A stretch of DNA of 64,000 bases from Planctomycetaceae bacterium. GTDB lineage: Bacteria > Planctomycetota > Planctomycetia > Planctomycetales > Planctomycetaceae. The stretch covers positions 1 through 64,000 of the forward strand of contig JAKFUG010000003.1 of assembly GCA_021732785.1 (NCBI GenBank). Reading direction: 5' to 3'. Of this stretch, positions 3,814 through 35,201 are shown in pieces. The translations under genes were made by a program, and so were the position numbers. Position 1 is the stretch's first letter. Every line of letters begins with the position of its first letter. The notes beneath the pieces are model-generated. The model saw only the letters and a program-made list of their open reading frames with translations. It was not told the DNA's origin and made no database searches.

Positions 3814-4515
3814 ATGAGCAGGGCACGCTGTCTTGTCGCGGTCTCGATATTGTTGTGTGGATTCTCCTCCGCGGTCTGGTCGCAGGTTCGCGTGGGACCC
3901 AACGGTGGTGTGCATCGCGCGTACCCCTATGGCGGCGGCTGGTGGGGCGGCTTCAATTACTCGGGTGACATCGGTATCACGCCGGCGGAAAGCCAGGCCC
4001 GCGGTTATGCCGATGTTGTGCGGGCTCAGGGGCAAGCCTACGAGAACATCTCGCGCGGAATGGTCGACTACGAAAAAGCCCGGTCGGCCTACATCGAGAA
4101 TCAGAAGCAATGGCAAATCACGGCCCAGGAACGACAGGACATGGGCATCGCGCAGCGTGAGAAGTATTACGCCAGCGAACGCGCCAAGCGCGACCGTCGC
4201 AATGCGACGACTTCCACCGCCGCACCGCCCGCGTTGTCCGCGTCTCAGTACGATCGCGCCACGGGCCATGTGGAATGGCCGGAATTGCTGTCCGCGCCCG
4301 ACTACGCCGATGATCGCAAGGCGATGGAAGAACTCCTGTCCGTTCGCGCCCACACCGGCGGGACAACCATCGTGAACGACCGCCTCTACGATGCCGCGAA
4401 AGCGATGCAGGCGAAATTGAAGGTGCAAATCCAAACCGTCACCCCGCAACAGTATCTGGAATCCAAGAAGTTTCTCGAACTTCTCGCCAGCGAAGCGCGT
4501 CGTGGAAACGCATGA
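3814..4515 (+). CDS. small secreted protein of unknown function
   Basis: A 233-residue protein starting with a signal peptide (VAVSILLCGFSSAVWS-Q, cut near residue 23). The mature N-terminus has a Gly/Tyr/Trp-rich patch (YPYGGGWWGGFNYSG), followed by a charged, probably helical segment (about residues 70-135, rich in Glu, Arg, Lys and Gln) and a C-terminal helical part with DDRKAMEELL and YLESKKFLELL. AGGAG lies nine bases before the ATG. I recognise no family. The composition suggests an exported, possibly periplasmic structural or accessory protein. It is followed 190 bp later by the efflux operon, but nothing visible links them. Confidence 0.75.
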   Translation: MSRARCLVAVSILLCGFSSAVWSQVRVGPNGGVHRAYPYGGGWWGGFNYSGDIGITPAESQARGYADVVRAQGQAYENISRGMVDYEKARSAYIENQKQWQITAQERQDMGIAQREKYYASERAKRDRRNATTSTAAPPALSASQYDRATGHVEWPELLSAPDYADDRKAMEELLSVRAHTGGTTIVNDRLYDAAKAMQAKLKVQIQTVTPQQYLESKKFLELLASEARRGNA

Positions 4516-9343: not shown

Positions 9344-9580
9344 TCGCAGAGGATCGGCGCTGGTTTCGGCCGCTGCGGGTTCGGCAGTGTGGCCCGTTCG
9401 TGTTGCCAAAACGCCACGTCTTCGTACGCCTCTTCCGCGCCGTGATCGATTTATCGGGAACTCATTCCACAGCCTGCCATCGGAGTTGTCGCGGCTCTCT
9501 GGAATGGTAGAACTGTCTGAGTGAACGGCACCGGCCTGCTGGGAATTCGGCACAACCGTTGCTTCCGTTATCACCGACAT
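9337..9580 (-). pseudogene. small hypothetical gene with a one-base frameshift
   Basis: On the minus strand an ATG at 9580 sits behind a good ribosome site (AGGAG, eight bases upstream) and opens MSVITEATVVPNSQQAGAVH..., ending in LWNEFPI. In the +1 frame the protein-like text continues as DHGAEEAYEDVAFWQHERA and LPNPQRPKPAPIL to a TGA at 9337-9339. Removing one A of the run opposite 9450-9452 fuses them into one product of about 80 residues. Left unchanged, the first frame runs on antisense into the RND gene. No family is recognised. It converges with the pump gene, overlapping its last bases. Either a recent indel or a sequencing error would explain it. Confidence 0.45.
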
Positions 9581-17672: not shown

Positions 17673-18152
17673 TCAGCCGTCTTGCAAGTGGGCTTCGACA
17701 AACCAGAGCGTCTTGTCGAGACTGCGCGAAATCCCGGTACAAAGATCGGCGGTATCCGCGTCTTCGAATTGGTTCGCCTGATCGATCGCGGCCCGCATTT
17801 TCTGACCGGTTTTGGCCAAAGCGGTCGACAGGGCCTCGACATGGTCGCGACCCTTGACGATCGTCGTGGCATACGCGGTCAACGACGTCCGTTTCCCGAC
17901 CGCCGCCAGCGTTCCTTCGGCAGTGCCTCCCAGGGCAACAATCCGTTCGGCCACATCGTCCACAAAGGGAATGATCTCGGCGGCCACGGAGTCAAATAAC
18001 TCGTGCAGGGCGATGAACTGCGGGCCTTTGACATTCCAGTGGGCTTGTTTCGCCTGCAGACCCAGATCAATCAAGTCGGCAAGACGTTCATTCAGCAAAT
18101 CGGCCACCGCCGCGCGAGTCTTCGCGCTGAGATCATTTTTCGTGGGATTCAT
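17673..18152 (-). CDS. dps: Dps-family ferritin-like DNA protection protein
   Basis: A 159-residue ferritin-like protein. Dps dodecamers oxidise and store iron and protect DNA in starvation. The ferroxidase motif is clear: KQAHWNVKGPQF (His), HELFDSVAAEIIPFVDDVAE (Asp/Glu pair), then ERIVALGG. The length matches the family. I prefer the ATG at 18152 (GGAATGA upstream) to a TTG at 18170. It opens a region rich in stress genes (csrA, DUF1328, CsbD), though it is transcribed from its own promoter on the minus strand. Confidence 0.93.
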   Translation of the reverse strand: MNPTKNDLSAKTRAAVADLLNERLADLIDLGLQAKQAHWNVKGPQFIALHELFDSVAAEIIPFVDDVAERIVALGGTAEGTLAAVGKRTSLTAYATTIVKGRDHVEALSTALAKTGQKMRAAIDQANQFEDADTADLCTGISRSLDKTLWFVEAHLQDG

Positions 18153-18224
18153 GGTTTCATTCCAATTCAATCGAGGTGAAGGCCATCATGATGGGGATTC
18201 TAGCAGCGTCGGCGCGTTGGTCGA

Positions 18225-18668
18225 GTGCCCAATGATCGGCACGCAAAATGCGGTGCTTTCACGCTCGGCAAACAATCGGACCGCGTCCGGTTGAGCGGAC
18301 CCAATTGGCGACTGGTCATCTGGTTTGTAAGTCTGAAAGGTGTTGAAACAATTCTGAATCGTGCAACGAACGATCCGGTGTCAGAGAATTCGCCGCGGCG
18401 ACACGACCGGACGGGGGACCGGGAATCGTCGTTCCCCGTTGAAGCCACCCCGTTGCTGGCGATGGTGATGGGAACGATTGTTCCTATCGGCTTGAGTGCG
18501 AGTGCGGCGCTGGCGTTACGGCGATCTGCATCGGAGCGCGTGGGCATTGCCGCGTGGGTCGCCGTGACGGTGGTGGGGACCGCTGCTGTGATCTCCGCCG
18601 CGCGTGCAATGAGATACGCACAAGGATCGGCGGAGTCATCAGCGAAGGCGGATAACCTCGCTGGGTAG
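18225..18668 (+). CDS. possible small membrane protein
   Basis: An open frame of 147 codons whose last 70 residues look like a real two-helix membrane protein (MVMGTIVPIGLSASAALAL and IAAWVAVTVVGTAAVISA with Arg-rich turns). The first half is poor in protein-like character, so a later start near 18462 is possible. There is no convincing ribosome site and no recognised family. The stop is four bases from the convergent csrA stop. Confidence 0.35.
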   Translation: MPNDRHAKCGAFTLGKQSDRVRLSGPNWRLVIWFVSLKGVETILNRATNDPVSENSPRRHDRTGDRESSFPVEATPLLAMVMGTIVPIGLSASAALALRRSASERVGIAAWVAVTVVGTAAVISAARAMRYAQGSAESSAKADNLAG

Positions 18669-18671
18669 CGG

Positions 18672-18887
18672 TCAGGCATGGACGAGGGCGAGTTCAGGTG
18701 AGGAGGAACGCCACTCGCTGGCATGCAGGGGGTCGAGAGCAAGTTCCACTTCACCCCGCATGACCGTCACGTCATCCGGCGCAGAGATGCCGAGACGAAC
18801 GCGGTTGCCTTGAATGCCCAGGACAACGACGCGGATCGATCCATCGATGTATACTTCTTCGTTCGTGCGGCGGCTGAGGACCAACAT
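18672..18887 (-). CDS. csrA: carbon storage regulator CsrA
   Basis: A 71-residue RNA-binding dimer that represses or stabilises mRNAs by covering GGA sites near ribosome sites. The start at 18887 has AAGGAA seven bases upstream and opens with the invariant MLVLSRRTNEEVYI. GIQGNRVRLGISAPDDVTV and the alpha-helical tail with a planctomycete-type extension complete the family. The frame extends further upstream, but that part is not CsrA and lacks a ribosome site. Its location beside envelope-stress genes suggests a role in stress or surface control (inference). Confidence 0.95.
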   Translation of the reverse strand: MLVLSRRTNEEVYIDGSIRVVVLGIQGNRVRLGISAPDDVTVMRGEVELALDPLHASEWRSSSPELALVHA

Positions 18888-19479: not shown

Positions 19480-19653
19480 ATGTTGGGATGGGCAATTACA
19501 TTTTTGCTGGTGGCGCTTTTGGCCGGCTTCCTCGGGATGAGTGGAGTGGCCGGAACCGCGGCGTGGATGGCGCATGTCCTCTTCGTCGTGTTCCTGGTTC
19601 TGTTCCTGTTGTCGTTGCTCTCCGGCCGCCGCATTGGTCCGCCGTTGGATTAA
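19480..19653 (+). CDS. DUF1328 small membrane protein (first copy)
   Basis: A 57-residue YtjA-like protein: MLGWAITFLLVALLAGFLGM, then a second hydrophobic segment and the conserved end LLSGRRIGPP. The start follows GGTGAGGG. DUF1328 proteins are tiny two-helix membrane proteins of unknown function, often stress-induced. The frame extends upstream without family similarity. The next small gene follows 23 bases later, then a strong terminator, giving a two-gene unit. A second copy is at 25254. Confidence 0.88.
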   Translation: MLGWAITFLLVALLAGFLGMSGVAGTAAWMAHVLFVVFLVLFLLSLLSGRRIGPPLD

Positions 19654-20796: not shown

Positions 20797-21217
20797 GATT
20801 CTGTTCCCATCGTCTTTAACTGCTCGATATCCGTGCCCAATCACACGATTGGCAAGAGAGTGGGAGCAGCATTACGCAAATCCGACGCCATTCATGGAAG
20901 GGGCTTCCATTTGCGAAACAACGGGTGGGTTCTGGTTGTTCAGCGTCCAGTGAGCCCGTTCATCGGACGTTTTTGCTGACGCGCCTCCTGTGCGGACGAC
21001 CGGGCCGCCCCATCGCAGCACTGGTCTCTAACAATTCAACGGACTTCGGCAAGCTGAAACGCGGCAGAAAGCAGGCCATTTCGCCATTGCGGTAACCGTT
21101 CCCGACAGCCGGAAGGGGAAATGACGATCCGTGGCACGGCCCTTGCTAATTCTTATTTCTCGAAACCCGAGAGACCTTGGTCTTTCGGCAGTAACACCGC
21201 TTCTAAGGGGCACAATA
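20797..21217. other. divergent intergenic region with sigma-54 promoter
   Basis: 421 bases between a minus-strand tiny gene and the CsbD cluster. Apart from the promoter at 21132 and a short leader dyad (TCTCGAAACCCGAGA, 21157-21171), I see no gene or repeat. Confidence 0.5.
21132..21147 (+). promoter_or_regulatory. sigma-54 (RpoN) promoter, consensus match
   Basis: TGGCACGGCCCTTGCT matches TGGCAC-N5-TTGC(A/T) at every defined base, with GG (21133-21134) and GC (21145-21146) separated by ten bases. Transcription would start near 21158, about 60 bases before the ATG at 21218. Activation should need an NtrC-type protein; one is encoded at 25633. Confidence 0.8.
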
Positions 21218-21637
21218 ATGGCAACCGTTCAGCAGATGCGTGGGAAATGGAATGAAATCGCAGGGCGTCTCAAAGAGAAGTGGGGCGTGCTGACCGAGGA
21301 CGATTTGAGCCGCTTCGAAGGGAACCTGGAGCAACTCGTCGGCTTCGTGCAGCAGAAGACCGGCCGGGCTCGCGAAGAAGTCGAAAAGTTCATCGACTCC
21401 GTCGTCAGCAATTCCTCGCAGGTTTACGACAAGGTCGCCTCGTCGGCGAAGGAATATGCCACGGAAGCGACGGATGCGGTCCGTCGCGGATACGAGCAGG
21501 CTTCGGCGAATCTTGCGAATGGTTACGACCAGGCCGAAAACATGGTGCGTCAGCGGCCCGCCGAATCGCTCGCCGTTGTGTTTGGTGCCGGGCTGATCTC
21601 GGGCGTCCTGTTGACGTTGATCTTGCGAAATCGCTAA
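21218..21637 (+). CDS. CsbD-like / DUF883-like stress membrane protein
   Basis: A 139-residue fusion. The N-terminus (QQMRGKWNEIAGRLKEKWG, VLTEDDLSRFEGNLEQLVG) is a CsbD domain, known from general-stress genes. The middle is an amphipathic, Ala-rich helix region (residues 60-105), and the C-terminus ends in a single helix (LAVVFGAGLISGVLLTLIL) as in ElaB/YqjD (DUF883) proteins, which anchor to the inner membrane and can bind ribosomes. The start at 21218 follows AAGGGG; the earlier in-frame ATG is not family-like. It is the first gene after the sigma-54 promoter. Confidence 0.9.
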   Translation: MATVQQMRGKWNEIAGRLKEKWGVLTEDDLSRFEGNLEQLVGFVQQKTGRAREEVEKFIDSVVSNSSQVYDKVASSAKEYATEATDAVRRGYEQASANLANGYDQAENMVRQRPAESLAVVFGAGLISGVLLTLILRNR

Positions 21638-21718: not shown

Positions 21719-21946
21719 ATGATTCAACCTGTGAAAAACCGCATTGCGGATGTTTACAGCAGCCTGCCGGAAGCACCGATGCAGGCGATTCAAGGTTGTC
21801 TTCAATCGACTCAGGATGCGATTGAGGACAACCCCGGTGTGGCCGTGATGACGGCGTTTGCGGTCGGAATCGGTGTGGGGATCGGCATTGTCACGCTGTT
21901 GAATTGCAGTTCACCACCGGCCCGTTCGCGTTGGTCGCCCTACTAA
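21719..21946 (+). CDS. small DUF883-like membrane protein
   Basis: A 75-residue protein starting at 21719 behind AAAGGGAC. The second half contains EDNPGVAVMTAFAVGIGVGI, a glycine-zipper membrane helix like the C-terminus of YqjD/ElaB proteins. The first half is polar and helical. It lies in the same direction as its neighbours in a run of six tiny membrane-protein genes. Confidence 0.75.
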   Translation: MIQPVKNRIADVYSSLPEAPMQAIQGCLQSTQDAIEDNPGVAVMTAFAVGIGVGIGIVTLLNCSSPPARSRWSPY

Positions 21947-22007: not shown

Positions 22008-22448
22008 ATGGCCACGACTGACGTCACAACCATTCGAGCACGCATGGCGCGGATTCGGTCCCGCGCTCAGGGTAAAGCCGTACGCCTCAGTCAGGAAACC
22101 AAGCGGTTTCTGGATTGGAAGCACTATGTGCGGTTATTTCCCTGGGGCATTGTCGGGGCCGCTGCCGTCGCGGGTTATTTAATCGTTCCCGCTCGTCGTG
22201 CAGCCCCGGTGGAAACGATCCCAGGTCAACCGAATCCGCCTACGGCTCCGTCGCCGCCACCACCGCCAGCGAAACAGGCTGGGCTGGTATCATCACTTTT
22301 TAGTGTGGCTGCCAATGCCGTGATGCGGTCCGCAGTCTCTTATGCGGGACAAGCAGTCGGACAGTACCTCGCGAATCTGCAACAACCATCAACAATTCCC
22401 CAACCTGCCAAGGAGCGATCTGAACATGAGCGTTACAGCGTCCGTTGA
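22008..22448 (+). CDS. small membrane protein with proline-rich linker
   Basis: A 146-residue protein with an Arg-rich N-terminus (TIRARMARIRSRAQGKAVRL), one hydrophobic helix (LFPWGIVGAAAVAGYLIVP, about 43-62), a Pro-rich stretch (PPTAPSPPPPPAK) and a second mildly hydrophobic region. No known domain. It overlaps the next gene by 23 bases, suggesting translational coupling. Confidence 0.7.
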   Translation: MATTDVTTIRARMARIRSRAQGKAVRLSQETKRFLDWKHYVRLFPWGIVGAAAVAGYLIVPARRAAPVETIPGQPNPPTAPSPPPPPAKQAGLVSSLFSVAANAVMRSAVSYAGQAVGQYLANLQQPSTIPQPAKERSEHERYSVR

Positions 22449-22620
22449 GAAGTCGGAATTGGCGGCTGCCAATGCCCCGTCGATGGGCGAGGATCTGCAA
22501 GCCGTCGCACAGCGTTCTCAACTGCTCGTTGAGCAATCGATTCAGCGTTTTCCAGGCCTGAGCGTCGGCGCAGCAATCGCCGCGGGAGTGGTGTTGGGAT
22601 GCCTCGTCAAGCGGAACTAA
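22426..22620 (+). CDS. tiny DUF883-like membrane protein
   Basis: A 64-residue protein with a strong AAGGAG eleven bases before ATG 22426. Polar N-terminus, then QRFPGLSVGAAIAAGVVLGC, a glycine-zipper helix ending LVKRN, as in YqjD-type C-termini. It overlaps its neighbours on both sides (23 and 22 bases). Confidence 0.8.
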   Translation: MSVTASVEKSELAAANAPSMGEDLQAVAQRSQLLVEQSIQRFPGLSVGAAIAAGVVLGCLVKRN

Positions 22621-23054
22621 ACGGCCACAGTGCTCCGGAAGCGACCGTTGGGGAAGTCACGACGCACGCGTCGGGGCTCGCTTACGATTTGATCACGCTC
22701 GCGGAATTGCAGGCTCGGTTGTTGTTTCTCGATATGCGGGAAGCCACTCGGCGTTCGGCGATTACCGCGGTGATCCTTTCGGCGATGGCCGTGTTTTCAG
22801 TCAGTGCCGTCCCGGTTTGCTTACTGGGGATATCGGAGCTGTTAATCGAATATGCGGAATGGCACCGCGCGGTGGCCTATCTCACCGTCGGCAGCGTGGG
22901 TGCCATTGCGGCGTTGATTGGGGCGTTCATAGCAGCGAAACGGCTGGTGAAAATCGGCGCGGTTTTTGGGCGGTCGCATCAGGAATTTCAGGACAATCTG
23001 GAATTCGTGAAACGTCTCGTTCGCGGTCCTGAAAATGATGAAGCGAACGGCTAA
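22599..23054 (+). CDS. phage-holin-superfamily (YqjE-like) membrane protein
   Basis: A 151-residue protein with two membrane helices (SAITAVILSAMAVFSVSAVP and VAYLTVGSVGAIAALIGAFI) after an amphipathic segment (LITLAELQARLLFLDMREA), the architecture of the holin-3-6/YqjE family. In enterobacteria yqjE lies beside yqjD and yqjK; here it similarly follows the CsbD/DUF883-like genes. Its function is unknown; lysis is not implied. Confidence 0.8.
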   Translation: MPRQAELNGHSAPEATVGEVTTHASGLAYDLITLAELQARLLFLDMREATRRSAITAVILSAMAVFSVSAVPVCLLGISELLIEYAEWHRAVAYLTVGSVGAIAALIGAFIAAKRLVKIGAVFGRSHQEFQDNLEFVKRLVRGPENDEANG

Positions 23055-23112: not shown

Positions 23113-23337
23113 ATGTCGAGTACATACTCTGGTCCGGGGATGAATGTTCCCACCCCGACTGCGGCACGCATCAATCCGAACCCTCCATTGGGTTCCGCTT
23201 GTGCGACGCCGGAAATGCGGCTGCTGAACGATGTGGGCCAATACCTGCAAAACTACGCCCAGGAACGCCCCGAAGTGGCCGCCCTGTGGTGCTTTGGCGT
23301 GGGCTTTATCCTCGGGTGGCGGTTGAAGCCCTGGTAA
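23113..23337 (+). CDS. small membrane protein ending the stress cluster
   Basis: A 74-residue protein behind AAAGGAC. It has a Pro-rich N-terminus (TPTAARINPNPPLG), an amphipathic segment (MRLLNDVGQYLQNYAQERPE) and a short C-terminal helix (ALWCFGVGFILGWRLKPW), again a YqjD-like anchor. The terminator at 23365 follows at once. Confidence 0.7.
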   Translation: MSSTYSGPGMNVPTPTAARINPNPPLGSACATPEMRLLNDVGQYLQNYAQERPEVAALWCFGVGFILGWRLKPW

Positions 23338-23364: not shown

Positions 23365-23410
23365 AAGACGCGATGCTCGCCTACGGGACTCGGGCACCGC
23401 GTCTTTTCTA
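23365..23410 (+). terminator. rho-independent terminator
   Basis: AAGACGCGATG pairs with CACCGCGTCTT (one mismatch) and is followed by a T-rich run. It closes the 21.2-23.3 kb small-protein cluster. Confidence 0.75.
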
Positions 23411-23447: not shown

Positions 23448-24716
23448 ATGGCGGTCACCATGAACGACGTCCCCGACGCAATGGAGGCGAATGCGGCCAC
23501 ATCACGAACAGATGACTTTCAGCCATTTGAGGTGTGGGCCACGAGTATGATCAACACTCCTGAAGAAGCGTCGTTCGAATCTTTGGTCGTCAGCATTGAT
23601 CCGATCTCCATGACGAGTCCCTCGGCAGCAGTCGACGAACGTACTCGGCAGCGGAATTCTTTAGCCTTGCAACTCGTGAGCTTGCGTCGCTGGTTGATCA
23701 TGCTGTGTGGAATTGCCTTCGTCTGGATCTTGAGTTTCGCGCAGGCCATCGTGATTCCGTTCATGCTGTCGTTCGTCCTCTATTTGTTGCTGCGCCCGGC
23801 CGTTCGCTGGTTGTGGCGTCGGCATATTCCCGAATCCGTGGGTGCCGCCCTGTGCCTCATTGTCGTGGCTTCGGCCCTGGTCGTCGGGATTCTGCCGTTG
23901 GTGGGACCCGCGCGACAGTGGTTAGAGCATCTCCCGGAACATCTGCAAAATGCGGATCAAAAGCTCAAAGTCATCCGCGATCAGATCGGTCAATTTGCGG
24001 AAATTCGCACGCGGCTGAACGATCTGACATCCTCGGATGAGGATCATCGGACGATGACCGTCGCCGTGCAGCAGCCCGAATTGACGAGCAGCACCATGAT
24101 GTTGAGCACCACCGGCAATACGTTGGGAATGGTGGTCGTGATCATCGTGTTAACGTATTTCCTGCTGATTGCGGGCGATCAATTCATCAATAATGTTCTT
24201 TCGATTCTGCCGACATTCCGCGAAAAGCGACAAATGGTGGAATTGATTCTCGATGTTCAACGAGGGATCTCGTCGTATTTGCTCACCATCACGGGTATTA
24301 ACATTGGCTTGGGAGTCGTTGTCGCTTTCGCCCTGTGGTGCCTCGGCGTTCCAAACCCGGCCGTGTGGGGGTTGCTGACGACGATCTTCAATTACGTCCC
24401 GTTCGTCGGCCAGGGTGTCACCGGGCTCTTGATCGGGCTGGCAGCATTGCTGAGCTTCGATTCCGTGGGCTATGCGCTCCTGGTCCCCGCGGTTTTCTAC
24501 ACCATTGCCGCGATCGAAGGGAATCTGATCACGCCGTCCCTGTTGGGGCGACACATGAGTCTGAATCCGATCATGGTGCTGGTGTCGCTGCTGTTTTGGG
24601 GATGGCTGTGGGGCATCGCCGGGGCGGCGCTGGCGGTTCCCATTCTGGCGATGACGAAAATCAGTTGCGATCGCTTTGAATGCACGCGATCCATTGGCAC
24701 GCTGCTGGGGGGATGA
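23448..24716 (+). CDS. AI-2E family transporter (PerM/TqsA-like permease)
   Basis: A 422-residue polytopic membrane protein. After a polar N-terminus (about 75 residues, longer than usual) come several hydrophobic segments, including FVWILSFAQAIVIPFMLSFV, VVIIVLTYFLLIAGDQFINN, AVWGLLTTIFNYVPFVGQGV and LLFWGWLWGIAGAALAVPIL; the last two are signature regions of the family. Members export small molecules, including AI-2 in E. coli, or sodium. The gene is separate from the upstream cluster by a terminator. Confidence 0.92.
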   Translation: MAVTMNDVPDAMEANAATSRTDDFQPFEVWATSMINTPEEASFESLVVSIDPISMTSPSAAVDERTRQRNSLALQLVSLRRWLIMLCGIAFVWILSFAQAIVIPFMLSFVLYLLLRPAVRWLWRRHIPESVGAALCLIVVASALVVGILPLVGPARQWLEHLPEHLQNADQKLKVIRDQIGQFAEIRTRLNDLTSSDEDHRTMTVAVQQPELTSSTMMLSTTGNTLGMVVVIIVLTYFLLIAGDQFINNVLSILPTFREKRQMVELILDVQRGISSYLLTITGINIGLGVVVAFALWCLGVPNPAVWGLLTTIFNYVPFVGQGVTGLLIGLAALLSFDSVGYALLVPAVFYTIAAIEGNLITPSLLGRHMSLNPIMVLVSLLFWGWLWGIAGAALAVPILAMTKISCDRFECTRSIGTLLGG

Positions 24717-24887: not shown

Positions 24888-24903
24888 TGGCACACCGCGT
24901 GCT
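24888..24903 (+). promoter_or_regulatory. sigma-54 (RpoN) promoter-like site
   Basis: TGGCACACCGCGTGCT has a perfect -24 box and GC at the right distance (GG-N10-GC); only the first T of TTGCT is changed. Transcription would start near 24915, about 43 bases before the lipoprotein ATG at 24958. Confidence 0.65.
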
Positions 24904-24957: not shown

Positions 24958-25125
24958 ATGCGTCTTTCTCTCGCGCTGTTCATGTGCGGCTTGCTGGCAA
25001 TGTTGCTGACAGGCTGCGAGCAGGCGCAAGAGAAAAAAATCCTGGAAATCAAGACGCCGGGAACCTCCATTGAAGTTCGAAAAAGTGATGACGGTGCGAA
25101 GGTCAATGTTGACCGCAAACCGTGA
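24958..25125 (+). CDS. tiny lipoprotein
   Basis: A 55-residue protein behind GAGGA. The signal peptide (SLALFMCGLLAMLLTGC) ends in a lipobox LLTGC, leaving a mature lipoprotein of about 36 residues that is charged (EKKILEIKTPG, VRKSDDGAKVNVDRKP). It resembles very small envelope lipoproteins found near stress genes. Probably sigma-54 dependent given the site at 24888, possibly with the DUF1328 gene downstream. Confidence 0.75.
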   Translation: MRLSLALFMCGLLAMLLTGCEQAQEKKILEIKTPGTSIEVRKSDDGAKVNVDRKP

Positions 25126-25253: not shown

Positions 25254-25418
25254 ATGTTAGACTGGGCACTCACGTTCCTGATTATCGCTCTCCTCGCAGG
25301 GTTGTTCGGATTTGGTTTAGTAGGCGGTATGGCCTATGGAGCGGCAAAACTTTGCTTCTTTGTATTCCTGGTTCTGGCCATCGTTTCCATGCTGACCGGA
25401 CGCCGCCTCCCCCGTTAG
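25254..25418 (+). CDS. DUF1328 small membrane protein (second copy)
   Basis: A 54-residue paralogue of the protein at 19480: MLDWALTFLIIALLAGLFGF, a middle GAAKLCF and the conserved ending MLTGRRLPR. The start at 25254 follows GAAAGGA. The in-frame upstream extension is not family-like. A terminator follows at 25451. Confidence 0.88.
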   Translation: MLDWALTFLIIALLAGLFGFGLVGGMAYGAAKLCFFVFLVLAIVSMLTGRRLPR

Positions 25419-25450: not shown

Positions 25451-25486
25451 AAAAGCCTCCCGAACTGGATTCGGGGGGCTTTTTTC
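25451..25486 (+). terminator. rho-independent terminator
   Basis: AAAGCCTCCCGAA pairs with TTCGGGGGGCTTT (one wobble) and runs into six T. It ends the second DUF1328 transcript. Confidence 0.9.
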
Positions 25487-25632: not shown

Positions 25633-27096
25633 TTGCCCGCCACAGCCCTGGTGATTGACGATGATCGCAGCGTGCATCATTTGATTGCACGATCGCTGGA
25701 AAAGATCGGCGTGGAAGTGATTTCCGCGATGGATGGCCCGACGGGCGTGCAACTCGTCGCCTCGAAACATCCCGACGTGGTCCTGCTGGATATCCGTCTG
25801 CCCAATCAATCGGGACTGGAATTGTTCGGCCGCATTCGCGATCTGGATCGCCGTCTGCCGGTAGTCTTTGTGACCGCCGATTCGGAGAGCGAAACCGCCA
25901 TCGAAGCCATCAAGCTCGGTGCCTACGACTATCTGCGGAAGCCGCTCGATCTGAATCAACTCAATGACCTTGTGCAGCGTGCCGTGGAAACGCGGCGGAT
26001 GATGAGCGTCCCCGTCGCCATCCCCATTCGCAGTCTCGACGATTCTCCGGCCGATGCCTTCGTGGGTGCCGGGCCAGCGATGCTCGATGTGTACAAGATC
26101 ATCGGTCGCGTCGCCGGTCAGGATGTTCCGGTCCTGATTCGCGGCGAAAGCGGCACCGGCAAGGAGCTTGTCGCGCGGGCGATTTACCAGTACAGCCGGC
26201 GTTCCACGGAACCGTTCCTCGCCATCAACTGTGCCGCGATTCCGGAAAATCTGCTGGAAAGCGAACTGTTTGGTCATGAGAAAGGGGCCTTCACCGGGGC
26301 CGATCAGCGACGCATTGGAAAATTCGAGCAATGCAACGGCGGGTCTCTTTTCCTGGATGAAATCGGCGACATGCCCCTGTTGCTTCAGGGCAAGGTCCTG
26401 CGGCTCTTGCAGGATCAGAAATTCGAGCGCGTGGGCGGGAACTCCACGATCACCACAAACGTGCGGTTGATTGCCGCCACGAATCGCCCGCTCGAGCAGA
26501 TGGTCGAAGACGGCAACTTCCGTGAAGATCTGCTGTATCGACTCAATACGATTACGATCCGGTTGCCTCCTTTGCGTGATCGTCCGGAGGATCTCCCATT
26601 ACTGCTGGAACGATTCCTCTCCCGCTTTGCCGTGGAATTGAACCGGCCCGATCTGGAAGGGATTTCGCCGTCTGCCCTCGACTTGCTGAAGCAGTATCCA
26701 TGGCCGGGAAATATTCGCGAGCTGCAAAGCGTCGTCCGGAATGCCATTCTGCATACCCCCAGCACGGTCATCGTTCCCGACTTTTTACCGCCCGAAGTTC
26801 GCAACATGACACCGCCTCCGGTCAACGCGATTCCGGGCGCGCATGCCCCTTCTCACGGGCACATCTCCGAGTGTGATCTCGTAGGCTTTGTGGATACACG
26901 ACTCAAGCGCGGCAGTACGGATCTCTATGCCGAGTGTCTGGAAGTCATGGAACGCTTCTTGTTGACGCGTGTCTTGCAGGAGACGCAGGGAAATCAAAGC
27001 CGGGCCGCTGAGATCCTTGGTATCACCCGCGGCAAGGTTCGCGATCGAATCGCCGCTTTCGGCATCGTCGTCGACAAAGACGTGCGGATGGAATAG
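25633..27096 (+). CDS. sigma-54-dependent response regulator (NtrC family)
   Basis: A 487-residue activator. The receiver domain (residues 1-120) has the acidic pair in VIDDD, phospho-Asp53 in VVLLDIRLP and Lys in LRKPLD. The AAA+ domain follows: Walker A GESGTGKE (about 171), the sigma-54 contact loop GAFTGA (about 218), Walker B GGSLFLDEIGDMP and R-finger region FREDLLYRLN. A Fis-type helix-turn-helix closes it (GNQSRAAEILGITRGKVRDR). The start is TTG at 25633 with GAGAGG seven bases upstream; no ATG fits. With GAFTGA intact it should open sigma-54 complexes; sites of that type lie at 21132 and 24888. Confidence 0.95.
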   Translation: MPATALVIDDDRSVHHLIARSLEKIGVEVISAMDGPTGVQLVASKHPDVVLLDIRLPNQSGLELFGRIRDLDRRLPVVFVTADSESETAIEAIKLGAYDYLRKPLDLNQLNDLVQRAVETRRMMSVPVAIPIRSLDDSPADAFVGAGPAMLDVYKIIGRVAGQDVPVLIRGESGTGKELVARAIYQYSRRSTEPFLAINCAAIPENLLESELFGHEKGAFTGADQRRIGKFEQCNGGSLFLDEIGDMPLLLQGKVLRLLQDQKFERVGGNSTITTNVRLIAATNRPLEQMVEDGNFREDLLYRLNTITIRLPPLRDRPEDLPLLLERFLSRFAVELNRPDLEGISPSALDLLKQYPWPGNIRELQSVVRNAILHTPSTVIVPDFLPPEVRNMTPPPVNAIPGAHAPSHGHISECDLVGFVDTRLKRGSTDLYAECLEVMERFLLTRVLQETQGNQSRAAEILGITRGKVRDRIAAFGIVVDKDVRME

Positions 27097-27335: not shown

Positions 27336-29801
27336 GTGTTGATGCTGGAATTACCCGACTCGCGATCGCCCTTGCCTGGGGGGGGGCCGTTATCAGAAGA
27401 GGCGAAGGGGCAGCCCGAGTTGTCGTCCCGCGACGTCATGCTGCGGCATCTCGTGGATGCGAATGTGCTCGGTGTCATCGTCTGCCAGCTCGATGGCCGC
27501 GTCACCGATGCGAATCGCGCCTTTCTGGAGTTGATCGAGTCGACCGAGGCCGAACTCGAAGCGGGAGCGGTCAATTGGAGACGGCTCACACCGCCGGAGT
27601 ACCGCGAGCTCGATGCAGGCCTGATCGAGCAACTGGAGAGGACCGGGCGCTTTGAAGCCGCGGAAAAAGAGTACGTGCTCGCTTCGGGCAAGCGGGTCCC
27701 GGTCTGGATTGCAGGTGCCATGACGCCCGCAGGCGAAGACGTGGTCTGCTTTGTGATGGACCGCACGCTGCAACAACAAACCGAAACCGCTCTCGTTCGG
27801 GCGAAAGACGAGGCCGAACGATCGAACCGAACGCGGGGCGAATTCCTCGCGAATGTCAGCCACGAGTTGCGAACCCCCATGAATGCCATTCTGGGAATGA
27901 CCGAACTGGCCCTCGATGAAGAGTTGCCTCCGCTGATTCGCGACTATCTGGAAACGTCGATTGAGGCCTCGCGGACGCTCTTGTTTCTGCTCGACGACCT
28001 GCTCGATTTTTCGCGCATCGAAGCCGGGAAACTGGATCTGGAATCGCGTCCCTTCAGCTTGCATACCACGCTGGATCAGGCGATGCGGATCCTCGGACTG
28101 CGGGCGTCCGAAAAGGGATTGGAGCTAGCCTATTCCATTGCCAGCGACGTTCCGGACCGCTTGATGGGCGATCAGGGACGTTTGCGGCAAATCGTGCTCA
28201 ATCTCGTGAGTAACGCCATCAAGTTTACGGCGCGGGGGGAAGTCGTCGTCGAATTGTCGTGCCCCCGGCCAAACGCCGACGTCCCTCGCGACGCGGACGA
28301 GACCGCAGTTGAGATTCGCCTTGTGGTCAAAGACACCGGGATCGGGATCAGTCCGGAAGATCAAGTACGGATCTTTGAACCCTTTACCCAGGTCGATGCC
28401 TCGTCCACGCGGCTGTATGGCGGGACCGGACTGGGGTTGGCGATTGTGCGGCAGTTAGCCCAGCATATGGGCGGCGATGTGACCGTCGAGAGTCAGCCCG
28501 GTCTGGGGGCACGGTTTTTCGTTAACTTGCGTTTTCAGTCGGCGGACATCGAAGCGGATGCGGTCGACTCGAATCACGCGGTCTTTCATCATCTGCGCGG
28601 CATTCGCGTGCTGGTGGTCGACGATAATCACACCAACCGAAATATCCTCTATCACATTCTTTCCAGTTGGTCGATGCGGTGTGTCGTCGTGGCCGATGCT
28701 CACACCGCGCTAACCGAAATGCGGCAATCCCAGCGGGAAAATCGCGAATTTCAGGTCATCCTCGTGGATGCGCTGATGCCGGCGATGGACGGCATGCAGT
28801 TCATTCAGAAGGCGACGAGCGAAGACCTGCTGCGGGGGGCTCCCATTCTGATGGTCTCTTCCACAGATCGAAAATCGCTGGAACCACAGCTCAAGTCACT
28901 TCCCGTACTCGGCAAGCCGATCTCGCAGTCGGAGCTGTTCGATACGCTCATGGAGTCGCTTCACGGGCCGGCGATCGCCACGCCGCTTGCCGATCGTGTT
29001 GCCACCGCCCGCCATGTGTATCGCGTTCTCGTCGCGGAAGATGCGCCGGCAAATCGAAAAGTGGTGAAGGCCATCCTTGAGAAACGCGGACATCAGGTAA
29101 CCCTCGCGTTGAACGGGCAGGAGGCGGTCGACCTGGTTCGCGAAGAAAACTTCGATGTCGTGCTGATGGATGTGCAGATGCCTTTGCTCGACGGGTGGGA
29201 CGCGACAAAAGCGATTCGCCAGTTGCCGGCGCAGGCGAAAATTCCGATCATTGCCATGACGGCCCATGCGATGCGCGGTGATCGGGAACGATGTCTTGCG
29301 GCCGGGATGGACGATTACATTTCCAAGCCGCTCGATGCTCACCAACTGATTCGGCTGGTCGAGCGTCTGGCCAGTAAGTCTTCCGCAGCGCAGAAAAAAT
29401 CCTCCGACACCATGGAGACGACCGTGGATGCAAAGGTTGAACGCACTGACGGTCTCGCCGGTACAACCTGGATCGATCGCCCCGGAGCGCTTCAGCGGAT
29501 GGGCGGCGATGCGACGTTGCTCCACGAAATGGCGGAATTCTTTCTGGAGGATGCGCCAGCCCTCATGCAGACCATTCGGGGTCAACGCACAGGAGAGGAC
29601 GCGGCTCGCGCGGCTCATTCGTTGCGGGGATTAGCGTCCAATTTTGGTGCGAAGTGCCTCACCGAGCCCGCCCTCAAACTGGAATCGGCGAGCACTTCTG
29701 CAGAGAGCAAAGAACAAGCCATCCAGGAACTCGAAGCCCAGTTGCCGCACGTCATTCAAGCGGTACAAGCGCTTGCGAACGAGGGTCGTGGGTCAGTTTA
29801 A
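27336..29801 (+). CDS. hybrid sensor histidine kinase with two receivers and Hpt
   Basis: An 821-residue soluble hybrid kinase without membrane helices. Order: PAS (about 35-150), HisKA with the phospho-His in NVSHELRTPMNAILG (His176), HATPase (NLVSNAIKFT, DTGIGISPED, YGGTGLGLAI), receiver 1 (LVVDDNHTNRN, Asp478 in ILVDALMP, Lys in GKPI), receiver 2 (LVAEDAPANRK, Asp612 in VLMDVQMP, SKPLD) and a C-terminal Hpt (AAHSLRGLASNFGA, His761). It resembles BarA/ArcB-type phosphorelay kinases. Translation begins at GTG 27336 or ATG 27342. A run of nine G (27378-27386) codes Gly15-17. Its position 240 bases after the sigma-54 regulator suggests a functional link. Confidence 0.93.
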   Translation: MLMLELPDSRSPLPGGGPLSEEAKGQPELSSRDVMLRHLVDANVLGVIVCQLDGRVTDANRAFLELIESTEAELEAGAVNWRRLTPPEYRELDAGLIEQLERTGRFEAAEKEYVLASGKRVPVWIAGAMTPAGEDVVCFVMDRTLQQQTETALVRAKDEAERSNRTRGEFLANVSHELRTPMNAILGMTELALDEELPPLIRDYLETSIEASRTLLFLLDDLLDFSRIEAGKLDLESRPFSLHTTLDQAMRILGLRASEKGLELAYSIASDVPDRLMGDQGRLRQIVLNLVSNAIKFTARGEVVVELSCPRPNADVPRDADETAVEIRLVVKDTGIGISPEDQVRIFEPFTQVDASSTRLYGGTGLGLAIVRQLAQHMGGDVTVESQPGLGARFFVNLRFQSADIEADAVDSNHAVFHHLRGIRVLVVDDNHTNRNILYHILSSWSMRCVVVADAHTALTEMRQSQRENREFQVILVDALMPAMDGMQFIQKATSEDLLRGAPILMVSSTDRKSLEPQLKSLPVLGKPISQSELFDTLMESLHGPAIATPLADRVATARHVYRVLVAEDAPANRKVVKAILEKRGHQVTLALNGQEAVDLVREENFDVVLMDVQMPLLDGWDATKAIRQLPAQAKIPIIAMTAHAMRGDRERCLAAGMDDYISKPLDAHQLIRLVERLASKSSAAQKKSSDTMETTVDAKVERTDGLAGTTWIDRPGALQRMGGDATLLHEMAEFFLEDAPALMQTIRGQRTGEDAARAAHSLRGLASNFGAKCLTEPALKLESASTSAESKEQAIQELEAQLPHVIQAVQALANEGRGSV

Positions 29802-34505: not shown

Positions 34506-35201
34506 TTGGGCGGTTTCCATCAGAATGATAATCGCCTTGCGGACGAAAATCCCCCAGTTTGCCTTTACGCGGGCTCCACGGTCTTGAAACCCATCGAAAT
34601 TCCGCCCCTCAAAATTGTTTTGGCGCATGGAGTCGAAGACGCGCGCACGGGACTTTACGAAGCGCTGCGGAAGCTGCGCTACGAGGAAGTCTACAGTTGC
34701 AACACGGGGCGCGAGCTGATCGCCTTGGCGAAGGAGCACACGCCCGATCTGATCATTAGCGGCGTCGATATGCCCGACATCGACGGTGTTTCGGCGTTGG
34801 TAGAAATCAGCGAAACCCTCAAAATCCCCGCGATCATCGTGACGCAGGAGCGATCGCTGGAGGTCGTCCAGCGGGCCCTGGAAGACCACGTGATGGCCTA
34901 CTTGCTGGAACCCGTCAACGTCGAAGAAATCCTGCCGACGATCTATCTGGTGCTGCGACGCTTCGAGCAGTTTCAAGATTTGCGGCAGGAAAATGAGTCG
35001 CTGAAACAGGCGCTGGCAGATCGCAAAGTGATCGAGCGGGCGAAAGGCGTGCTGATGAAGCAGGGCGGTATCGACGAAGAAACGGCCTACAAACGTCTCC
35101 GTCGCATGGCGACCGACAGCCGCATCCGCATGGTGGAAGCCGCGGAAAAAGTTCTCAGCGTGCTGGCCTTGCTGGAACCCGACCCCTGTGGGCAGGCATG
35201 A
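34506..35201 (+). CDS. ANTAR-domain regulator with degenerate receiver
   Basis: The protein has a receiver-like fold (about residues 35-150) and a C-terminal ANTAR helix bundle (RKVIERAKGVLMKQGGIDEE, TAYKRLRRMA, about 168-222). ANTAR domains bind paired hexaloop RNA hairpins and prevent transcription termination. The receiver has lost its chemistry: the expected phospho-Asp is Gly86 (LIISGVDMPDIDG), the acidic pair is replaced (IVLAHGVED), and the conserved Lys is Glu135 (LLEPVN). It thus resembles AmiR-type pseudo-receivers controlled by binding. The start is uncertain: TTG 34506 with AAGG upstream, or TTG 34584. A coiled helix (RRFEQFQDLRQENESLKQAL) precedes ANTAR. Confidence 0.88.
   Translation: MGGFHQNDNRLADENPPVCLYAGSTVLKPIEIPPLKIVLAHGVEDARTGLYEALRKLRYEEVYSCNTGRELIALAKEHTPDLIISGVDMPDIDGVSALVEISETLKIPAIIVTQERSLEVVQRALEDHVMAYLLEPVNVEEILPTIYLVLRRFEQFQDLRQENESLKQALADRKVIERAKGVLMKQGGIDEETAYKRLRRMATDSRIRMVEAAEKVLSVLALLEPDPCGQA

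Follow-up and report, generated by a model that had tools for sequence, protein, structure and literature searches.

The sequence data from the window, as the whole 64-kb stretch of DNA analysed here is called, are best explained jointly, and with good probability, by a sigma-54 promoter at 21132, an operon behind it, a stress regulon to which this operon would belong, a likely activator encoded at 25633 and a membrane role of the operon products. We propose that a NtrC-type activator, once switched on, would allow the RpoN-dependent promoter at 21132-21147 to drive a single operon for six small membrane proteins, the first of which has a CsbD domain and a membrane tail at its C-terminus. This operon would be part of a wider sigma-54 regulon of CsbD, DUF1328, DUF2383 and, probably, BON and DUF4142 genes, in this bacterium as well as in its class. 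The protein encoded at 25633, with receiver, AAA and HTH domains, would be the likeliest activator and would receive its signal from the hybrid kinase encoded at 27336. The operon products would probably insert in the inner membrane by glycine-rich tails and probably serve there, like YqjD and ElaB in E. coli, in stress or the stationary phase.

The -24/-12 element TGGCACGGCCCTTGCT (21132-21147, + strand) matches TGGCAC-N5-TTGCT exactly, with GG at -24, GC at -12 and the fixed spacing between them. The first-pass annotation had called it the only full match noticed in 64 kb, located 70 bases ahead of a start codon, and both statements hold: a single exact match was found in the window, with a mean of 0.03 in dinucleotide shuffles (at least one match in 3 of 100 shuffles), and the site is intergenic, 70 bases upstream of the ATG of the CsbD gene at 21218. 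Transcription would be expected to start near 21158. Sites were then scored by keeping GG and GC fixed and counting matches over 11 consensus bases. Three sites reached at least 10/11, at 9548, 21132 and 24888, respectively 42, 70 and 54 bases from the next start on the same strand, and all three are intergenic in a window that is 83% coding according to a hand-made gene list. At 9/11, twelve of the fourteen sites were within genes and two were intergenic. A matrix-type scan, suggested earlier as a check for equally good matches in coding regions, thus set the sites apart at 10/11 or better but not at 9/11. The site at 9548-9563 (+), CGGCACAACCGTTGCT, matches 10/11 and precedes a gene for a Ser/Thr kinase that has a Cache-like region.

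The element at 21132-21147 is very likely a sigma-54 promoter. The support for this earlier proposal comes from conservation and not from the string, since CsbD homologues have a comparable element at a similar distance upstream in most relatives examined, with antisense, reversed and unrelated-gene controls mostly without one. For each gene the upstream 260 or 300 bases were scored and the best site with fixed GG and GC was taken. Among relatives, CsbD genes showed a site of at least 9/11 in 17 of 28 loci (our own included) and of at least 10/11 in 12, compared with 2 and 0 on the antisense strand and 1 and 0 for the reversed control; this set leaves out L028, at a contig edge, and L037, which is the same gene as L017. 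In a set of loci from named genomes, 37 of 63 CsbD genes had a site at 9/11 or better and 25 at 10/11 or better, with 5 and 0 in antisense and 2 reversed matches at 9. The two sets are not independent, 13 of the 76 named loci sharing sequence with the relatives' set, and removal of the overlapping loci leaves 32 of 52 by subtraction. The other 26 of the 63 loci lack a 9/11 site within 300 nt; some of them have one further upstream and some have none.

Similar results were obtained with two other gene families. DUF1328 genes of relatives carried a site of at least 9/11 in 22 of 30 loci (at least 10/11 in 13; antisense 1), and those of the named set in 13 of 13 (antisense 0). For DUF2383, the counts were 13 of 19 and 6, respectively, with 1 in antisense. 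The base rate in 6000 random 260-nt windows, drawn from source loci that include true sites, was 4.1% at the lower and 1.1% at the higher threshold, and the succinate dehydrogenase cytochrome gene used as a control gave 1 of 29 and 0 (another locus was left out, its upstream stretch being short). The letters flanking 51 sites showed T or C ahead of TGG in 39 and a purine after CAC in 41, which we take to be leanings of the sigma-54 consensus.

The site tends to go with the first gene of a unit. In G019 and G034, DUF1328 lies ahead of CsbD in the unit and the site is found before DUF1328, not before CsbD. The gene for the 74-aa protein described below was preceded by a site in 9 of 18 loci when detached, compared with 5 of 54 inside operons (p 6e-4), and this evidence is weakened by antisense matches that are also high for the detached gene, 5/18. 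The sigma-54 link looks mainly class-bound, because only 4 of 21 DUF1328 loci from the phylum's other classes had a site (antisense 0).

Six small genes, coding for proteins of 139, 75, 146, 64, 151 and 74 aa, follow the 21132 site on the + strand, the third, fourth and fifth of them overlapping, and each product contains hydrophobic segments as judged by eye. The first gene (21218-21637) codes for a protein of 139 aa with a CsbD domain (PF05532, 1.6e-16; 60.3 bits, above the cut-off of 40), a long helix and, at the C-terminus, a membrane tail. The helix gave a weak, sub-cut-off match to PspA_IM30, and the structure model of this protein was helical with a mean pLDDT of 61.6, too poor for a fold search. 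It is followed by a 75-aa protein with a glycine-rich membrane segment (21719-21946), a 146-aa protein with one membrane segment and homologues in relatives, for which no Pfam family match was obtained (22008-22448), and a 64-aa protein ending in a glycine-rich membrane tail and basic residues (22426-22620). The fifth gene (22599-23054) encodes a 151-aa membrane protein of the Holin-X superfamily III (PF07332, 7.6e-10; 39.3 bits, above the cut-off of 28.4), and the sixth (s6, 23113-23337) a 74-aa protein with a C-terminal membrane segment, CFGxGFxLGWxLKPW, that is strongly conserved in alignments. An intrinsic terminator, a hairpin then a T run, lies at 23365-23409 (+; -24.9 kcal/mol, z -2.9), and a gene for an AI-2E family transporter at 23448-24716 (+; PF01594, 5.7e-51), which comes after the module in many relatives. 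Near the module, at 17673-18887 on the - strand of the window, a Dps/ferritin-like gene is found together with csrA; in E. coli, CsrA is described as a repressor of yqjD and elaB (PMC10746276).

Homologues of the operon genes were counted in two sets of loci. In 20 loci of relatives, selected for a CsbD match, the 146-aa protein was present in 18, the 74-aa protein in 17, Holin-X in 13 and the AI-2E transporter in 10. The 76 named loci came from searching named genomes with two short peptide patterns for the 74-aa protein as a marker, so that distant relatives would be missed; 75 of them are from planctomycetes, including Kuenenia, which we count as one, and the remaining locus is given only as bacterium. 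CsbD was found in 68 of these 76 loci, the 146-aa gene in 62, Holin-X in 58, the 75-aa protein in 44 and the AI-2E transporter in 38, in 20 of those on the same strand, and the order CsbD, 146-aa, 74-aa on one strand was kept in 49. The six genes are a conserved planctomycete module. The earlier description of a cluster of six small membrane-protein genes closed by a terminator at 23365 was therefore correct on both points, and the cluster is in addition conserved. In Isosphaeraceae-type loci (L171-L188), the module is split, with the 74-aa gene apart and CsbD often on the opposite strand.

Three of the products, perhaps four, appear to end in glycine-rich membrane tails that are related to each other and resemble the YqjD tail of E. 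coli. By hhalign, whose scores for tails may be inflated by short membrane segments, the tail of the CsbD protein was related to the 75-aa (97.6%), 64-aa (95.0%) and, less surely, 74-aa (66.2%) partners, and the YqjD tail to the CsbD protein (93.0%), to the 64-aa protein (94.8%) and weakly to the 74-aa protein (35.3%). The C-terminal glycine zipper of DUF883 (DUF883_C, PF19029) was recognised at E<=1 in 13 of 17 CsbD homologues, with a best value of 1.7e-5; the window protein itself gave E 0.2 and 11.8 bits, below the cut-off of 27. The DUF883 N-terminal domain (PF05957) was absent among the matches of the window CsbD protein and was found in 2 of the 17 homologues (best 0.0057); these are therefore not DUF883 proteins, and they look anchored like them. 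Two further relationships were considered and rejected: homology of the 151-aa Holin-X protein to E. coli YqjE (hhalign 7.9%) and homology to YqjK, for which no profile match was obtained.

A second unit, preceded by the site TGGCACACCGCGTGCT (24888-24903, +, 10/11), lies 54 nt further on and contains a gene for a lipoprotein-like protein of 55 aa (24958-25125, +; LTGC lipobox by eye), without a family match, and a gene for a DUF1328 small membrane protein (25254-25418, +; PF07043, 1.7e-11); it ends with a terminator, a hairpin and T run, at 25452-25486 (+; z -3.7). In G001, from the same genus, the same lipoprotein/DUF1328 pair is preceded by a 9/11 site (L224, position 3026); no such site was found before the pair in G026. 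Another DUF1328 gene of the window, at 19480-19653 (+), had no 9/11 sigma-54 site upstream in the window scan. Downstream of the second unit, the gene at 25633-27096 (+) codes for a NtrC-type activator with receiver (PF00072), sigma-54 AAA+ (PF00158) and Fis-type HTH (PF02954) domains, whose translation contains GAFTGA. The gene at 27336-29801 (+) codes, by domain matches, for a hybrid histidine kinase (PAS-HisKA-HATPase-two receivers-Hpt), a candidate partner of the activator. An antiterminator-type regulator with receiver and RNA-binding ANTAR domains is encoded at 34506-35201 (+), beside two hybrid kinases.

The 25633 activator is a plausible switch of the regulon. Its orthologues (E<=1e-130) were found in 35 of 59 genomes and DUF1328 in 31 of 59. 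Of the 26 genomes with both, 13 have the activator no more than 4 kb from DUF1328, in several orientations, and the co-occurrence counts, uncorrected for relatedness, were 26/9/5/19 with DUF1328 (p 7e-5) and 23/12/4/20 with CsbD (p 2e-4). These figures bear on an alternative that we consider possible but unlikely, namely that the operon is sigma-54-dependent and responds, through another strong NtrC-type activator, to a narrow signal, for example envelope or osmotic stress, and not to general stress. The genome holds one rpoN (one Sigma54_CBD gene) and 14 strong Sigma54_activat matches, which leaves room for another activator, and the operon products, being membrane proteins, would suit an envelope or osmotic signal. 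CsbD has the linked activator within 6 kb in only 4 of the 23 genomes that contain both, and in 11 of the 76 named loci; the proximity to DUF1328 and the co-occurrence with both families speak for the 25633 activator. In G001 the activator and CsbD are on different contigs, and the hybrid kinase is the neighbour of the activator in 2 out of 20 activator loci, those of G001 and G026. Dyad counts and a palindrome EM search established no binding motif for the activator. A weak dyad, TGANCGNTCA, gave 13 matches compared with 4.6 in shuffles at one mismatch, the motif being derived from the same data, and it was absent at one mismatch from both window promoters.

It is very improbable that the element is a chance string and that transcription of the operon depends on a sigma-70 or ECF promoter. 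Across the whole 6.69-Mb genome the exact string occurred 7 times, compared with 6 for the reversed control, the TTGCA form 2 times compared with 1 and the TGGCAT form 4 times compared with 2. No fewer than 5 of these 13 sites fell within ORFs of at least 390 codons. Exact-string enrichment in the own genome was ruled out as proof of a promoter, the counts being about those of the reversed control, and the perfect string alone is a weak argument because such an excess is lacking and copies lie inside long ORFs. A weak sigma-70-like site is also present at 21191-21219 (9/12), but one such site was found where shuffles gave 2.6, and the conservation of the -24/-12 element before CsbD, DUF1328 and DUF2383, and not before the control gene, argues against chance. 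A phage-derived or lysis cassette, suggested by the family name Holin-X of the fifth gene, is barely credible given the conserved order with CsbD across planctomycete chromosomes and the lack of phage genes, by eye, among the window ORFs.

Another region of the genome, L221 (G000:C27:30000-45000), surrounds a second CsbD gene. Sigma-54-like sites were found there at 4514, 4728, 5677, 6758, 8151 and 10509, among them sites before genes for DUF4142 (10/11), an unknown 195-aa protein (10), BON (10) and DUF2383 (9). Sites at this locus also precede a large glycosyltransferase-like gene and a gene for an exported protein, behind which CsbD lies. By analogy, DUF4142, BON, DUF2383, CsbD and DUF1328 would be of the kinds found in general stress regulons, and a sigma-54 regulon of general-stress-type genes is likely. 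RpoS dependence is reported for the CsbD-like YjbJ and the DUF1328 protein YtjA in Salmonella (PMC5437024) and for yqjC and yqjD in E. coli (PMC10746276). The recurrent pairing suggests that many planctomycetes rely, for part of the general stress response, on another sigma factor than do E. coli and Bacillus. If the class-wide link is true, the response would be controlled by an activator that uses ATP and, through it, by a specific kinase. Tentatively, and with more doubt than confidence, we extend this to Planctomycetia as a whole: sigma-54 may have taken the job of RpoS/sigma-B, with one NtrC-type activator and a hybrid-kinase phosphorelay as the general-stress switch of a scattered regulon of CsbD, DUF1328, DUF2383, BON, DUF4142 and tail-anchored membrane proteins. 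The analysis yields a promoter list for probing planctomycete stress signalling and a regulatory context for the tail-anchored membrane proteins of this conserved and so far unnamed module.

As a rule, general stress regulons depend on factors of the sigma-70 family (RpoS, sigma-B, EcfG), and the phage-shock (PspF) response is a sigma-54-driven inner-membrane stress operon. The operon described here would likewise be sigma-54-driven, with the differences that the activator has a receiver domain and that no PspA gene accompanies it. PspF is listed in PMC3162934. No paper that links CsbD or DUF1328 with sigma-54 in planctomycetes was found in the openly licensed literature, which was partially covered. 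The closest is a matrix survey that predicts a Planctomycetia sigma-54 regulon with UspA, chaperones, MscS, CsrA and activators (PMC12316311); CsbD and DUF1328, both part of the regulon proposed here, do not appear in the main text of that survey. From array data in Rhodopirellula, rpoN control has been suggested for one stress gene (PMC2754498). In Listeria, csbD is described as activated by sigma-B and lowered by sigma-54 (PMC8568364), the opposite sign to that proposed here.

The CsbD domain, above the Pfam cut-off, is common to the 139-aa protein and the CsbD/YjbJ general-stress proteins. The E. coli yqjCDEK operon, with YqjD, ElaB and YgaM as C-tail-anchored ribosome-binding proteins, is likewise an operon of small inner-membrane proteins. 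It differs in that CsbD stands here in place of the DUF883 N-terminal domain of YqjD, that the Holin-X protein is not recognisably YqjE, that YqjK has no match and that sigma-54 would act here and RpoS there. The glycine-rich C-terminal tails of the CsbD and 64-aa proteins are like those of the YqjD group (hhalign 93-95%), the stress or stationary-phase setting described for yqjCDEK (PMC10746276) would be shared, and by this analogy a YqjD-like membrane role of the operon products is plausible.
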